This document shows, piece after piece, positions 3,129 through 61,876 of a DNA stretch of 64,000 bases. The notes under the pieces were generated by a model. It saw only the letters and a program-made list of their open reading frames with translations, did no database searches and was not told the origin of the DNA. The stretch comes from Gemmatimonadota bacterium (lineage in GTDB: Bacteria > Gemmatimonadota > Gemmatimonadetes > Longimicrobiales > Gaopeijiaceae), in assembly GCA_022823225.1 (NCBI GenBank), contig JAJDXM010000064.1, positions 1 through 64,000 of the forward strand. Direction: 5' to 3'. A program made the position numbers and the translations under genes. Every line of letters starts with the position of its first letter. The first letter of the stretch is position 1.

Positions 3129-3202
3129 CACGCCCGCCAGGACTCGAACCTGGGACCCTCGGCTTAGAAGGCCGATGCTCTATCCAGCTGAGCTACGGGC
3201 GC
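3129..3202 (-). tRNA. tRNA-Arg (TCT)
   Basis: Minus-strand cloverleaf with acceptor GCGCCCG/CGGGCGT (one G-U pair), D arm AGCTCAGC, anticodon stem TCGGC/GCCGA around loop CTTCTAA (anticodon TCT, reading AGA), and T loop TTCGAGT. CCA is not encoded. It reads toward the stop of the serine hydrolase, 36 bases away. Confidence 0.96.
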
Positions 3203-27685: not shown

Positions 27686-28812
27686 GCCGGACTCCCTTCC
27701 TCGGGGGGGGAATCCGGCTCCCCCGGGGCCGGCTCCGGCGGCGGCGTCTTGCCGAGAAGCACAGCCATCCATCGGAGGTCAGGGGTGTTCTCCAGCATGA
27801 TCTTGACCACCATGGTGAGAGGGACGGACAGCAGCGCGCCGAGCGGCCCCCAGAGCCACCCCCAGAAGAACAGGGACACCACCACGATCAGGGTCGAAAG
27901 CCCCAGATGCCTGCCCAGCAGCGTGGGTTCGAGCCAGTTCCCGAAGAAGACGTTCACCGTCAGATAGCCCAGGCCCACGATTGCAGCGTGCTGAAAGTCC
28001 ATCCCCGCGAACTCCAGGGTGACCGGGTCGATGTCGATCCCGGCCAGAATCAGCGCCGGGACGGAGGCGATGATCGATCCGATCGTCGGAATGTAGTTGA
28101 GCAGGAAGGCAAAGAGCCCTAGCAGGATCGGAAGGTCGAGCCCCATGAACCACGCCCACAACCCCAGCAGAACGCCCGTCGCGATGCTGATCAGCGTCTT
28201 GATGACGAGGTAGCCCTGCACCTCCGCGATGATCTTGCGGAAACGCTCGTCCAGCGGCACCCCGCCACCGGCGATCAGCTGAAGCTTCCGTGGGAGGACC
28301 GCGGCCTCGCCCAGCGCAAACACGAGAATCAGGACCACCAGGAAGGTGCTGGTGAGGAACGACAGCGCCCAGGTGGTCAGATCCGTCACCCATCCAGTGA
28401 GAAACTCCGCGTTCACCTCTCCCTCGATGAACGCGCGGAGCTCCCCTTCGTCCAGCAGCGGCACCCAGTCCTCGATCTGCGCCGTCCAGGGGCCGAGCTG
28501 GGGGAGGGCGGCCTCGATCAGCGTAACAAGCCGGTCCCGCAGTTCGGGCGTCTGCTGGCTGCCCACCAGGATCAGCAGGCCGAACCCGCCCGCGACGGCC
28601 AGCACGGTGATCACGACCGAAATCGCGAGCGGGACCCGGCGGCTCGACAGCCAGAGCACGATCGGCAGACAGATGACGGCCAGGAAGGTCGCCGTCGCGA
28701 CCGGAAGCAGCACCGGCTGGGTGAAGCGCAGTCCGTGGATGAGAATGAATCCGACCGCAACAGTGAAGAGAATCCGGAGTCCCGGGTTTCGGTCGAACTG
28801 GTCGTAGATCAT
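27682..28812 (-). CDS. AI-2E family transporter (TqsA/PerM-like permease)
   Basis: 376-residue polytopic membrane protein with the AI-2E exporter layout: helices at the N-terminus (about 15-80), a central soluble loop with amphipathic helix (residues ~85-150), and a bundle of closely spaced helices with LFAFLLNYIPTIGSIIASVP, the best-known family signature, and LGPLGALLSVPLTMVVK near the end. The C-terminal ~30 residues are Pro/Glu-rich. The ATG at 28812 is preceded by a divergent spacer of about 150 bases toward the release-factor-like gene. Substrate unknown; the family name reflects one member and does not prove quorum-signal export. Confidence 0.9.
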   Translation of the reverse strand: MIYDQFDRNPGLRILFTVAVGFILIHGLRFTQPVLLPVATATFLAVICLPIVLWLSSRRVPLAISVVITVLAVAGGFGLLILVGSQQTPELRDRLVTLIEAALPQLGPWTAQIEDWVPLLDEGELRAFIEGEVNAEFLTGWVTDLTTWALSFLTSTFLVVLILVFALGEAAVLPRKLQLIAGGGVPLDERFRKIIAEVQGYLVIKTLISIATGVLLGLWAWFMGLDLPILLGLFAFLLNYIPTIGSIIASVPALILAGIDIDPVTLEFAGMDFQHAAIVGLGYLTVNVFFGNWLEPTLLGRHLGLSTLIVVVSLFFWGWLWGPLGALLSVPLTMVVKIMLENTPDLRWMAVLLGKTPPPEPAPGEPDSPPEEGSPA

Positions 28813-33559: not shown

Positions 33560-34948
33560 ATGCGTTACCTCAGCGGCTCACACATTTCGCGCCGGGCCAT
33601 GCTCAAGGGAGCCGGTGCGGCGATAGGACTGCCTCTGCTGGACGCGATGATCCCGGCAGGCCGGGCATTCGCATCCACCGCCACCGGAAAGGCCGCCGAC
33701 AAGACCAGGCTGGTGTGCATCGAGCAGGTGCACGGAGCCGCCGGGTGCAACGCCTGGGGGGCTTCGCAGAACCTGTGGTCTCCCGCGGAGACGGGACGCG
33801 ACTTCGATCTGTCGCCCGGCAGTCTGCGTCCCCTCGAGCCGTTCCGGAAATACCTCACGATCGTCAGCGACACCGACTCGCGGATGGCGGATGCGCACGC
33901 TCCGGCCGAAATCGGTGGCGACCACTTCCGGACCAGCGCGGTCTTCCTCACGCAGGCCCGTCCGAAGCAGACGCAGGGCTCCGATGTCCGCGTGGGCACT
34001 TCGATGGACCAGCTCTACGTGCAGCGGTTCGGGCAGGATACGCCGATCCCGTCGCTGCAGCTGTCAATCGAGAACGTGGACCAGGCCGGCGGGTGCGCCT
34101 ACGGGTACGCCTGCGTCTACACGGACACGATCAGCTGGGCGTCGCCCACGCAGCCGCTCCCCATGATCCGGGACCCGCGCGCCGTCTTCGAGCAGTTGTT
34201 CGGGGCCGGCGGGACGCCCGAGCAGCGGGCCGAGCGGCTCCTCACCGACCGCAGCATCCTGGACTGGGTGATCGGCGAGATGTCGTCTCTCAGGCGCCAG
34301 CTCGATCCGTCGGATCTCCACCGCCTGGACCAGTACGCGCAGAACATCCGCGAACTGGAACAGCGCATCGGCCGGATCGAGGCCCAGAACACGAGCGGCG
34401 AGAAGCGACAGATTCCGGAGGCTCCGGCGGGGGTCCCCGACTCTTTCGAAGAGCATGTGAAGCTGATGTTCGATCTCCAGGTGCTGGCCTTCCTGTCCGA
34501 CACCACCAGGGTTTTCTCCTTCAAGCTCGGCCGCGACGCTTCGCCCCGGGTGTACCCGGAGTCGGGCGTCGAGGCACCCTTCCACGCGTCGTCGCACCAT
34601 GGGGGCCGGGAGGACCGGGTCAAGGCGTTCGCGAAGATCAACGAGTACCACGTGTCGATGGTTCCCTATTTCCTCGAGCGCCTGCAGGCCGCGACCGAAG
34701 GCGATGGGAACCTGCTGGACAAGACCATGGTCGTCTACGGGTCGGCGATGGCCGACGGCAACCTGCACAACCACGCCCGTTGCCCGCTCTTCCTGGTCGG
34801 CGGCGCCAACGGCGCGCTGGAGGGGGAGCAGCACATCAGGGCCCGGGCGGGCACGCCGATGGCCAACGTCATGCTGAGCCTTCTGCACAAGCTCGGCGCC
34901 GAGGACATCGACACGTTCGGGGACAGCACCGGCCACTTCGCGATCTAG
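33560..34948 (+). CDS. DUF1552 protein with Tat signal
   Basis: 462 residues. The N-terminus SRRAMLKGAGAAIGLPLLDA has the twin-arginine motif (Arg11-Arg12), so it is exported folded, which suggests a cofactor or complex with the preceding cytochrome. The family features IEQVHGAAGCNAWG, RTSAVFLTQARPK and SSHHGGREDRVKAFAKINEYH are visible; the last contains paired histidines that could bind metal. The family is distantly related to sulfatase-like/alkaline-phosphatase folds by structure prediction in my recollection, not by anything seen here. The stop lies at the beginning of a partial dispersed repeat. Confidence 0.93.
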   Translation: MRYLSGSHISRRAMLKGAGAAIGLPLLDAMIPAGRAFASTATGKAADKTRLVCIEQVHGAAGCNAWGASQNLWSPAETGRDFDLSPGSLRPLEPFRKYLTIVSDTDSRMADAHAPAEIGGDHFRTSAVFLTQARPKQTQGSDVRVGTSMDQLYVQRFGQDTPIPSLQLSIENVDQAGGCAYGYACVYTDTISWASPTQPLPMIRDPRAVFEQLFGAGGTPEQRAERLLTDRSILDWVIGEMSSLRRQLDPSDLHRLDQYAQNIRELEQRIGRIEAQNTSGEKRQIPEAPAGVPDSFEEHVKLMFDLQVLAFLSDTTRVFSFKLGRDASPRVYPESGVEAPFHASSHHGGREDRVKAFAKINEYHVSMVPYFLERLQAATEGDGNLLDKTMVVYGSAMADGNLHNHARCPLFLVGGANGALEGEQHIRARAGTPMANVMLSLLHKLGAEDIDTFGDSTGHFAI

Positions 34949-35015
34949 CGGTCCGTGGTTGGTCTCCGCGTAGCACGGGGGGCGACGAGGCGCCGGGCTG
35001 GCCAGGCACGGCGGA
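34946..35015 (+). repeat. Partial copy C of dispersed structured repeat
   Basis: Begins TAGCGGTCCGTGG directly at the DUF1552 stop codon and continues to GGCGACGAGGCGCCGGGCTG. This parallels the head of copies A (42486) and B (61646) but lacks the central AATAGC stem and the tail. Confidence 0.6.
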
Positions 35016-42485: not shown

Positions 42486-42720
42486 TAGCGGTGGACAGAG
42501 CCCCGCGAGCACCGAGAGCGGCGAGGCGCCAAGCTGGCAAGGCGCGACGAAGGGCGAATAGCGGAGCTATTTGCCCAAGGAGCAACGCAGAGCGGTGCTT
42601 TGGGGCCGGCCGACGTATGGTAAACATGACATAATGTAATGTTATCTTTACATTGCGGATCGGTGAAGCACCGCGCCCAGCGCGGATGCATCGCCGCTCG
42701 AATGCCGGGGGGACCTATTC
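42486..42720. repeat. Copy A of dispersed structured repeat, interrupted by R2 insert
   Basis: Aligned with copy B (61646-61821): head TAGCGGTGGACAG, GAGCACCGAGAGCGGCGAGG, a stem GGGCGAATAGC-GGA-GCTATTTGCCC (42552-42576, 11 bp with one G-U), GGAGCAACGCAGAGCGG, and tail GGATGCATCGCCGCTCGAAT with a G-run. The copy is broken at 42592-42674 by an 83-bp insert containing R2 and bounded by GCGGTGCTT / AAGCACCGC inverted repeats. It fills the 320-base gap between recQ and the CDF remnant. Confidence 0.8.
42615..42663. repeat. AT-rich hairpin repeat R2 (right of recQ)
   Basis: Direct copy of R1. AATGTAA (42633-42639) and TTACATT (42648-42654) form a 7-bp stem with an 8-base loop. The ribosome-binding AAGGAG of R1 is AAGATA here, and the ATG is not followed by an open gene. 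Confidence 0.8.
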
Positions 42721-42762
42721 CATTCAAATGGTCCCGCCGGCACCCCCAATTCCTCCAGGGCA

Positions 42763-52588: not shown

Positions 52589-52662
52589 TGGGCCCAGAGG
52601 GACTTGAACCCCCGACCGTCGGATTATGAGTCCGCTGCTCTGACCGCCTGAGCTATGGGCCC
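52589..52662 (-). tRNA. tRNA with CAT anticodon (probably tRNA-Ile2, possibly elongator tRNA-Met)
   Basis: Minus-strand cloverleaf: acceptor GGGCCCA/TGGGCCC, D arm AGCTCAGG, anticodon loop CTCATAA, T loop TTCAAGT. The TTCAAGTCC T-arm and GACTCATAATC anticodon arm match E. coli tRNA-Ile(CAT) closely, in which C34 becomes lysidine. tRNA-Met cannot be excluded by eye. CCA is not encoded. Confidence 0.93.
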
Positions 52663-56295: not shown

Positions 56296-56331
56296 CACTC
56301 GAATGCCGGGGGGGTTCTTTCCACGGGCCGC
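56296..56331 (+). repeat. Partial copy D of dispersed repeat (tail only)
   Basis: CTCGAATGCCGGGGGGG followed by TTCTTTCCACGGGCCGCC matches the copy B tail (CTCGAATGCCGGGGGG ... TCTACGGGCTGCC). It overlaps the possible GTG start of the site-2 protease. Confidence 0.6.
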
Positions 56332-56342
56332 CAGTGGTGCCG

Positions 56343-59609: not shown

Positions 59610-59686
59610 TCAAAGGTAATTGCACCGCGGGCGGCGAGCCAACATGATGATTGGCGATGTTCCCTCCGACCCGGCAAGGAGCACCC

Positions 59687-61648
59687 ATGTCTCGATCGCA
59701 AGCCCGCAAGCGTCTCCAACGCGCCCTTCGACCCGTGTGCCTGGCCGGGATGCTCTCCCTGCCCACCCTGCTCGGATTTCCCGCGGAGGGCGGTGCCCAG
59801 GAGGTCGTGGGTGCGCCCAGGGTCGTCCTCTCCGCGGTCCCCTTCTCCGTGACGGTCGGCGGAGCGGCGGAGATGTCCACGCTCGTGGAGATCCGGGACG
59901 CCGGGGGCACGCTCCTCGCCTCGGGGCCGGTAGGTGCGGGCGAGACGCGCGAATTCCGCGACCTCGTGGTCCAGTCGCGCGACGCGCTCCCCCTGCAGGT
60001 GCGGGCAAACGGGTCCGTCAGCGAACTCTCGCCCCCGTATGCTCCCGGGTGGGTCTCGATTCTGCCCCCGCTGGTTGCGATCGCTCTCGCGCTCATCTTC
60101 AAAGAGGTCATCACGGCGCTCCTGGCGGGCATCTGGCTGGGGGCCCTGGTGGTGGCGGGATACAACCCCCTGCAGGCCACCTGGAGGCTGATCGACCAGT
60201 ACATCGTGCCCGCGCTGGGCGACACCGACGGCGGCCACACCCAGATCGTGGTCTTCAGTCTGCTGTTGGGCGGCATGGTCGGGATGATCAGCCGCAACGG
60301 CGGGACCATGGGCGTGGTCAATGCCGTGGCCCCGCTTGCGCGCAACCGCCGCCGCGGCAAGATCGCCACGGCGCTGGCCGGACTCGCGATCTTCTTCGAC
60401 GACTACGCGAACACGCTGGTCGTCGGGAACACGATGCGCCCGATCACCGACAAGCTGAAGGTGTCCAGGGAGAAGCTGGCCTACCTCGTGGACTCGACTG
60501 CGGCCCCGGTAGCGGCGCTCGTTCCGGTTTCGACCTGGGTGGGCTACGAGGTGTCGCTGATCGAAGGCGGCCTGAGCGCCGCAGCCGGCGAGGCGACGGG
60601 CGCGGACGTTGGATTCCTGGCAGGGCTCAGTCCCTACACCTTCTTCATCGAGACGATTCCCTACCTCTTCTATCCGCTCCTTGCCATGGCATTCGTGCTG
60701 CTGACCTCCGCGATGAACCGGGACTTCGGGGCCATGGCACGCGCGGAGGCCAGGGCGGCGGCCGGAGGCGGCGTCCTCCGTCCGGGATCCCGTCCGGCGA
60801 CCGACACCTCGGAGAGCTTCGTCCGGTCGAAGGAAGGGGTGCCGCGAAAGTGGTGGAACGCCGGGATTCCCGTCCTGACGGTGGTCCTGGTCGTTCTGGG
60901 CGGCCTGTACGCCTCCGGCAGGGCGTCGGTCGGCCCCGACGCTTCGCTGATGGACATCTTCGGACAGGCCGATCCCTTTGCCACCCTGCTCTGGGGCTCG
61001 CTCGCGGGGTGCCTGGTGGCCGCCGCGATGTCGCTCGGCCAGCGAATCCTGTCGATTCGGGAGTGCATCGACGCATGGATCGGCGGTGTCAAGGCGATGA
61101 TCATCGCAATGGTGATCCTCACCCTGGCCTGGTCGCTCGGCGCCGTGACCAAGGACGTCGGGACCGCCGGGTATCTCTCGGGGTTGCTGAGCGGCAACCT
61201 CCCCCTCTTCCTCCTCCCGGCGCTGGTCTTCGTCACCTCGGGCGCAATGGCGTTCGCAACGGGCACCTCATGGACGACCATGGCGATCCTGATCCCGCTC
61301 GTTATCCCGCTCACGGTTTCCCTGGCCGGGGGCACCGGATTCGCGGACGGCTCCCTCTACGGGATTCTTCTTGCGACCACCAGCTCCGTGCTGGCCGGCG
61401 CGATCTGGGGCGACCACTGCTCGCCAATCTCCGACACCACCGTCCTGTCGTCGACCGCCGCGGCCTGCGACCACGTCGACCATGTCCGAACCCAACTGCC
61501 ATACGCGATTCTGGTCGGGGTTGTGGGACTCCTGCTGGGAAGCCTGGGAACGGCCCTCTTCATCCCCGTCTGGGTCGCGCTTCCCGCCGGGATCGCGGTG
61601 CTGGCGGTGGTGCTGTGGTTCTTCGGCACGCCCATCGAGGACTACTAG
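59687..61648 (+). CDS. nhaC: NhaC family Na+/H+ antiporter with exported N-terminal domain
   Basis: 653 residues. ATG at 59687 has an AAGGAG site 6 bases upstream. The protein starts with a signal peptide (LSLPTLLGFPAEGGAQ), followed by a ~75-residue beta-rich domain (residues ~40-118, RVVLSAVPFSVTVGGAAEMS) that is not part of the classical NhaC. Polytopic NhaC core follows: FKEVITALLAGIWLGALVVA, IFFDDYANTLVVGNTMRPIT, TGTSWTTMAILIPLV and GDHCSPISDTTVLSSTAA. The core signatures point to sodium/proton exchange in the inner membrane. Repeat copy B begins at its stop codon. Confidence 0.92.
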   Translation: MSRSQARKRLQRALRPVCLAGMLSLPTLLGFPAEGGAQEVVGAPRVVLSAVPFSVTVGGAAEMSTLVEIRDAGGTLLASGPVGAGETREFRDLVVQSRDALPLQVRANGSVSELSPPYAPGWVSILPPLVAIALALIFKEVITALLAGIWLGALVVAGYNPLQATWRLIDQYIVPALGDTDGGHTQIVVFSLLLGGMVGMISRNGGTMGVVNAVAPLARNRRRGKIATALAGLAIFFDDYANTLVVGNTMRPITDKLKVSREKLAYLVDSTAAPVAALVPVSTWVGYEVSLIEGGLSAAAGEATGADVGFLAGLSPYTFFIETIPYLFYPLLAMAFVLLTSAMNRDFGAMARAEARAAAGGGVLRPGSRPATDTSESFVRSKEGVPRKWWNAGIPVLTVVLVVLGGLYASGRASVGPDASLMDIFGQADPFATLLWGSLAGCLVAAAMSLGQRILSIRECIDAWIGGVKAMIIAMVILTLAWSLGAVTKDVGTAGYLSGLLSGNLPLFLLPALVFVTSGAMAFATGTSWTTMAILIPLVIPLTVSLAGGTGFADGSLYGILLATTSSVLAGAIWGDHCSPISDTTVLSSTAAACDHVDHVRTQLPYAILVGVVGLLLGSLGTALFIPVWVALPAGIAVLAVVLWFFGTPIEDY

Positions 61649-61876
61649 CAGTCCGTGGACGGAGCCGCCCGAGCACCGAGAGCGGCGAGGCGCCTGGCTG
61701 GCAAGGCGCGAGGACGAGGAATAGCAGCGCTATTCCGAGGAGGAGCAACGCAGAGCGGAGCGGCCCAGCCCGGATGCATCGCCGCTCGAATGCCGGGGGG
61801 ATTGCGTCTACGGGCTGCCCGCAGTCCGTGGACGGAGCCGCCCGAATGCCGGGAAGACTCTGTCTACGGGCTGCCA
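61646..61876 (+). repeat. Copy B of dispersed structured repeat plus deletion derivative
   Basis: Full unit 61646-61821: head GCAGTCCGTGGAC, GAGCACCGAGAGCGGCGAGG, stem GGAATAGC-AGC-GCTATTCC (61717-61735), GGAGCAACGCAGAGCGG, GGATGCATCGCCGCTCGAAT, G-run, and TCTACGGGCTGCC. It is followed directly (61820-61876) by a short version in which the same head (CAGTCCGTGGACGGAGCCGC) is joined straight to the tail (GAATGCCGGG ... TCTACGGGCTGCC). Confidence 0.85.

Follow-up and report, generated by a model that had tools for sequence, protein, structure and literature searches.

A gene-less MITE family in a Gemmatimonadota genome and a probable single-strand fold that its interior shares with differently ended elements of other bacterial lineages

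The repeats of the window and their family in the genome

The window, that is, the whole stretch of 64,000 nucleotides that was analysed, is contig 7 of a 4.19 Mb assembly of 97 contigs, and contains, besides the repeats considered here, a 3'-truncated 16S rRNA gene on the minus strand (1-893) and three tRNA genes (1288-1361, 3129-3202 and 52589-52662). The best preserved repeat, copy B, adjoins a Na+/H+ antiporter gene (ORF 59651-61648, plus strand), the TAG stop codon of which occupies positions 61646-61648, so that the TA at the left of the repeat (61646-61647) is formed by bases 1-2 of the stop within a CTAG target. Sequence, alignment and fold z-score identify copy B as a complete short-form element of 171 bp on the plus strand (61648-61818), bounded by GCAGTCCGTGGAC and GTCTACGGGCTGC, with a core at 61703-61751 in which AAGGCGC and GCAACGC enclose the hairpin GGAATAGC/GCTATTCC. 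Directly 3' of it lies a 54-bp mini palindrome (61821-61874, plus strand) with the ends of copy B and no core, of the same kind as three others of the genome (L149-L151, 54-58 bp). Copy A, also on the plus strand, is found between the recQ and cation-efflux genes, which diverge, and is a long form of approximate limits 42488-42722, the left end of which is eroded (GC--GGTGGACAG) and the right end cut after TTCCA. Its core (42539-42588) reads AAGGCGC-GAC-GA, hairpin GGGCGAATAGC/GCTATTTGCCC, GCAACGC, and is followed by the extra stem-loop of approximately 75 bp typical of the long form (42592-42674), which runs from GCGGTGCT through an AT-rich stretch (ACATGACATAATGTAATGT) to AGCACCGC. Three smaller pieces on the plus strand complete the set: a left-end fragment from GCGGTCCGTGG to CTGGCCAGGCACGG (34948-35015), directly after the TAG stop of a DUF1552 gene; a right-end fragment (CACTCGAATGCCGGGGGGGTTCTTTCCACGGGCCGC, 56297-56332), which adjoins the 5' end of an M50 peptidase gene; and an isolated exact terminal sequence, GCAGTCCGTGGA (28728-28739), which came from the count of exact ends and may be a further end fragment.

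The original prediction had described copies A and B as members of a dispersed structured family with head, AATAGC/GCTATT hairpin and tail in common, and the alignment bears this out over approximately 107 bp (84.5% identity, window-wide E value 2e-24) and, in the tail, over a further 39 bp (97%). The aligned sequences also confirm the double change in the hairpin, where the pair 42555-42573 is C-G in copy A and G-C in copy B, as well as the neighbouring pair, G-U in A and G-C in B. Both repeats are real, with limits that had to be moved to those given above. The partial copy at 34.9 kb was recovered as a 72-74% match over approximately 70 bp, and that at 56.3 kb exists as a right end only. 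The stated position of the copies, on stop codons or closely behind them, is correct for copy B and for the 34948-35015 fragment and fails for copy A and the 56297-56332 fragment.

An origin by chance, which had been doubted, is contradicted by the abundance of the family: copy B retrieved 71 pieces of its own genome by BLAST, the covariance-model search that had been proposed found 43 cores there and from 3 to 86 per genome across 23 members of the genus, and 103 exact matches to the end GCAGYCCGTGGA were counted in the genome of the window, where the reversed control had 5. Many of these ends are truncated single ends, like both partial copies of the window. By reading 29 loci together the full element was defined as (C)TA, GCAGYCCGTGGA, interior, TCCACGGRCTGC, TA(G), with inverted ends of 12 bp or longer and a length of approximately 171 or approximately 247 bp, the long form having the added stem-loop with ACATGACATnnnGTAAnGT in its AT-rich loop, and the minimal form of 54-58 bp consisting of the two ends alone. 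No gene is borne by any of these forms. A second set in the same genome (L027-L030) combines the same interior with other ends, TGTCCCGTCCCGGAA, and near-identical copies with these ends sit at the ends of contigs C1, C9, C69, C73, C81 and C86, which indicates that the assembly is interrupted at elements amplified recently and that copy numbers are underestimated; since many copies lie at contig ends, the count for this genome is a lower bound. The AT-rich insert of all long forms (ACATGACATnnnGTAAnGTnnnTTTACAT, 42592-42674 in copy A) resembles, at the level of sequence, the subterminal TGACATAATG of some IS630 ends (L243, L245), and may be a candidate binding site for a transposase or a regulator.

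The repeat is short and gene-less, has terminal inverted repeats, occurs in dispersed copies and is present or absent between relatives; that it is a non-autonomous MITE family, amplified independently in many related genomes, is well supported. Among copies of the genus that were not chosen by pattern, conservation is 98-99% in the core strands, approximately 95% in the ends, 88% in the hairpin and 78% in the AT-rich insert.

Target sites and candidate movers

The 97 flank pairs available give the consensus C-TA, element, TA-G, and the YA steps of the two sides are associated, their pyrimidines, taken left with right, being TT in 37, TC in 16, CT in 7 and CC in 13 pairs. TA is found at both ends in 23 of the 97, no more often than independence of the two sides predicts; therefore, the TA could partly belong to the ends of the family, and a duplication is unproven by the flank test. 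Where the element is missing from other species of the genus, as seen at two loci, a single CTA is kept, which belongs to the stop codon of the adjacent gene. At the same loci several relatives have an ordinary hairpin terminator and three others a short palindrome with the same ends. In the convergent intergenic region of locus L002 (L219-L241 in relatives), some species carry the hairpin terminator CACCCCCGCG..CGCGGGGGTG and others the MITE or the mini palindrome, as if the element could stand in for the terminator. According to heuristic gene calls, element ends fall within 5 bp of gene 3' ends in 21 of 47 cases and of 5' ends in 4 of 37, with a median distance of 6 bp to the 3' ends. The association with TAG stop codons results from the choice of CTAG/TA targets. 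A bias in orientation relative to genes, which appeared initially (22:7), was dropped when more loci were considered (29:22, p 0.40).

IS630 and ISY100 insert at TA and duplicate it; for IS630, the literature (PMC2170065 and papers cited there) also gives a preference for CTAG, the target that is seen in the flank consensus and in the single CTA kept by relatives. The IS630 transposase domain PF13358 was detected in 7 of the 23 genomes of the genus, in elements flanked by CTAG with ends such as TAGTGTCGTGTCCC; none was detected in the assembly of the window. Draft MAGs often lose copies of insertion sequences. In two other genomes that contain the core the ends of IS630 elements match those of core-bearing MITEs (TAGTGTCCCGTCCCAGT / TAGTGTCCTGTCACAGTGGTTCGTG with TAGTGTCCCGTCCCAGTGGATCGTG in G046; TAGTATCCTGTCCCACAAATAA with TAGTATCCTGTCCCGCAGATAA in G043), and DDE_3 was confirmed in both IS630 proteins. 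The likeness of the GCAGTCCGTGGA ends to IS630 ends is only partial, as for TAGTGGTCCGTCAC in G047 and TAGTGTAGTGTCCGTGATA in G022. An autonomous element with exact GCAGTCCGTGGA or CCTARAAACC ends was not encountered, nor was one found by pairing of ends at 1-3 kb for GCAGYCCGTGGA or CCTARAAACC. At locus L245 an IS630 element (894-2070) has inserted immediately next to a MITE, abutting its right-hand GCAGCCCGTGGAC end, a case of nested insertion. Ends and target resembling those of the IS630/Tc1-mariner family, IS630 transposases provided in trans are the likely movers of the family.

A decayed gene or an IS end, named in the original prediction as what would overturn it, has been rejected: no coding capacity was detected, and the core is absent from the interior of all 9 full-length IS630 elements examined.

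The suggested search for target-site duplications gave a clean answer for a different type of core-bearing element only. In elements of the betaproteobacterial type, with ends CCTARAAACCKCAGTTGRAC, a clean 5-bp duplication (ATNAT or TTNAA) flanks 25 of 35 copies, where 3.3 would be expected, and a 6-bp duplication never occurs. Such a duplication means that these elements must have a different transposase. This family (G040, G055 and G057; L261-L326) has elements of approximately 235 bp with AT-rich 5-bp duplications, and up to 44 cores per genome.

A core common to elements of different lineages

The interior feature that recurs is the core, with the layout AAGGCGC-N3-GA-hairpin-GA-N3'-GCAACGC, in which the conserved strands lie between two variable helices. 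A pattern made of the core strands with a free loop gave more than 117 exact loci in one-per-species genomes among the matches listed, and the record titles of these listed matches include Gemmatimonadota, Acidobacteria, Deltaproteobacteria and Myxococcales, Binatia, Eisenbacteria, an actinobacterium, and Beta- and Gammaproteobacteria, the cultured Denitromonas, Pelomonas and Paucibacter among them. The core is present in at least 7 phylum-level lineages. Copies were found in all 20 pattern-matched genomes that were checked (1 to 119 each), and, in a survey of the class of Denitromonas with genomes not chosen by pattern, in 13 of 113 other genomes. Denitromonas iodatirespirans has 21 copies. 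At least 12 different inverted ends were read on its carriers (for example, TGTCCTGTCCCAGAAATAA, TGCCTCACGTCAGAAG, TGCCCTGTATCAGTGATAGG, TGTGCTGAACCACAAATAAG, AGAGCCGAACCGCAT, GGGCCTGTTAACACTCAT and CCTARAAACCKCAGTTGRAC), with the two insertion chemistries described above (TA target and 5-bp duplication), and elements of different lineages do not align outside the core. Gammaproteobacterial elements with ends GGGCCTGTTAACA contain two cores in inverted order; five loci from Gammaproteobacteria (L329, L330, L334, L335 and L342) are approximately 270 bp long, with ends TAGGGCCTGTTAACA and two inverted cores, the second having a hairpin of the GTGTACTTGACGTACAT type.

Spread by plasmids or phages was considered and rejected, no match to the core having been found in either except for a single viral contig. 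A known RNA family was rejected as well: neither the window repeats nor 12 loci from other lineages matched Rfam 15 above the gathering threshold, copy B giving only chance-level matches below it. Literature searches with the core sequence returned unrelated results only.

The first cross-phylum set consisted of exact matches to a 29-base pattern, so that conservation of those bases is ascertained by the selection, a bias that only the covariation, the hairpins, the ends and the later survey escape. In 38 diverse cores the hairpin and the outer helix covary, with a score of 0.232 against 0.104 ± 0.012 for shuffled alignments. With 42 sequences the score was 0.302, to be compared with 0.111 ± 0.014 after shuffling and at most 0.118 in slid controls, and the 3-bp helix formed by the inner triplets gave 0.291 by itself (0.095 ± 0.028). 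The triplets after AAGGCGC and before GCAACGC are mostly GAC/GGA, that is, tandem G.A plus a C-G pair, and the others (GAG/CGA, TCT/AGA, TGT/ACA, ATC/GAT, ATT/AAT, AGC/GTT and CTT/AAG) are always complementary save at the G.A positions; TCT/AGA and CTT/AAG also occur in the genome of the window (L025 and L152). Survey sequences show triple compensatory changes inside the conserved strands. AAGGCGC, GCAACGC and both GA steps are near-invariant, and two inner pairs (columns 12-32 and 13-31 of alignment A3) have no compensatory support. Further copies were thus found to carry paired changes, the lack of which would have told against the original prediction.

The two strands of the elements are not equivalent. 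As RNA, the strand on which AAGGCGC comes first has the better fold of the two in 14, 13, 12 and 10 of 14 elements of the four classes, respectively (p values from 1e-4 to 9e-3), and for copy B the fold z-score is -5.98 on the plus strand versus -2.32 on the minus strand. In addition, the interruptions of hairpin stems are G.T more often than A.C (29 versus 10). The asymmetry of the fold and the excess of G.T point to selection on a single-stranded form, be it RNA or ssDNA. Both proposed objects of selection, RNA and transposable palindrome, are supported: the palindrome is a MITE with inverted ends and a target-site signature, and the core strand covaries and folds asymmetrically.

Interpretation and relation to known systems

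By taking into account the covarying helices, the better fold of the core strand, and the persistence of the core where ends, hairpin and mover have changed, selection would act on the single-stranded form of one strand. We consider it likely that these are MITEs of the IS630 type with a conserved fold of RNA or ssDNA that is independent of the type of transposase. The conservation of the fold across differing ends suggests that it has a job of its own, so far undescribed. Transposases would act on the element ends, and the core, as RNA or ssDNA of one polarity, would be bound by a factor common to many bacteria. In the most likely model the transcribed core would be a protein-binding RNA fold for a host factor or an RNase, which would protect or process the element transcript and so make insertions tolerable or useful; alternatively, an ssDNA hairpin could be exposed at replication. 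An unlikely further reading would make the core a novel class of small functional RNAs (protein-binding, processed or even self-cleaving), carried as cargo by unrelated families of MITEs across phyla and deciding which of them succeed. The self-cleaving option would rest on analogy with small ribozymes, in which a conserved internal loop is likewise set between two variable helices.

Among the alternatives, the one to be weighed most seriously, although it too seems unlikely, is that the core is not an RNA at all, being instead an ssDNA hairpin for transposition or replication that is read by several transposases or by a host protein of wide distribution. Two insertion chemistries are found with the same core, DNA parameters likewise give its strand a good fold (z -4.0), and tolerance of G-T above A-C is possible for ssDNA too. 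However, the IS630-family transposase alone is sufficient for ISY100 transposition in vitro (PMC2170065), and full-length IS630 elements of the same genomes do without the core.

Distinctly less probable is an ordinary MITE palindrome, the core of which would be common through recent inter-phylum spread or recombination, with the fold as a by-product of inverted repeats. Stable hairpins are known for MITEs (reviewed in PMC10969869), and the near-identity of some copies of one genome marks them as recent. Between phyla, however, the core strands alone match, while hairpin, outer helix, ends and duplication length differ; the changes in the helices are compensatory; and a by-product palindrome is expected to fold about equally well on both strands, whereas the core strand is the better one in 49 of 56 elements.

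A stationary non-coding RNA or cis-regulator, repeated by happenstance, would agree with the conserved covarying structure and with the short median distance to gene 3' ends, but the clean 5-bp target duplications refute it as the whole explanation, and orthologous loci with species-specific presence or absence, nested and tandem insertions and the lack of an Rfam family make it very improbable; for the core as cargo it could still hold. A palindrome of the REP/REPIN type spread by a Y1 transposase (RAYT), to which the high-copy intergenic palindromes, including the minimal forms of 54-58 bp, might be likened, is scarcely credible and for the genus refuted, since Y1_Tnp (PF01797) was absent from all 23 genomes in a search that detected it in 5 control genomes, and REP sequences do not have inverted ends with TA or 5-bp duplications.

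MITEs are usually viewed as decayed leftovers with an irrelevant interior; here, one interior fold persists across many phyla, which renders a long-standing question testable, namely whether the interiors of bacterial MITEs have a selected function and which host or element factor reads the core. If the fold were RNA, it would represent a sizeable undescribed class of structured RNAs, with up to 119 copies per genome and also present in cultured bacteria such as Denitromonas.

With respect to known systems, RUP and Correia/NEMIS are MITEs of IS630/Tc1-mariner insertion sequences. The present elements resemble IS630/Tc1-mariner elements and their MITEs in having short inverted ends after TA, a CTAG target and TA flanks, and, like such MITEs, they contain no gene; other carriers of the core share genomes (G046, G043) with IS630 elements having matching ends. 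The elements differ from IS630 elements in the structured core, which is also found in MITEs of another mover. ERIC, BOX, RUP and QMITE repeats are similarly intergenic, palindromic and foldable as RNA, but they are not known beyond a few related species, whereas one core here spans phyla and is combined with several kinds of ends. For Correia and ERIC elements, transcript processing by RNase III or RNase E is known (PMC10969869). High-copy intergenic palindromes are also typical of REP/REPIN sequences with RAYT, but these are GTAG-tagged hairpins, in place of which the present elements have inverted ends and, in the betaproteobacterial type, target duplications; Y1 transposase was absent from the 23 genomes of the genus. 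Very similar in size and behaviour is the Chunjie MITE of Geobacter uraniireducens, an intergenic element of 178-235 bp with 37 further copies having conserved ends and direct repeats and 57 partial ones (PMC10969869); it has been described as one family in one genome, and the comparison made here is with that description. The element of the window works like an IS630-type MITE, and what is new is an interior fold common to MITEs of different movers.
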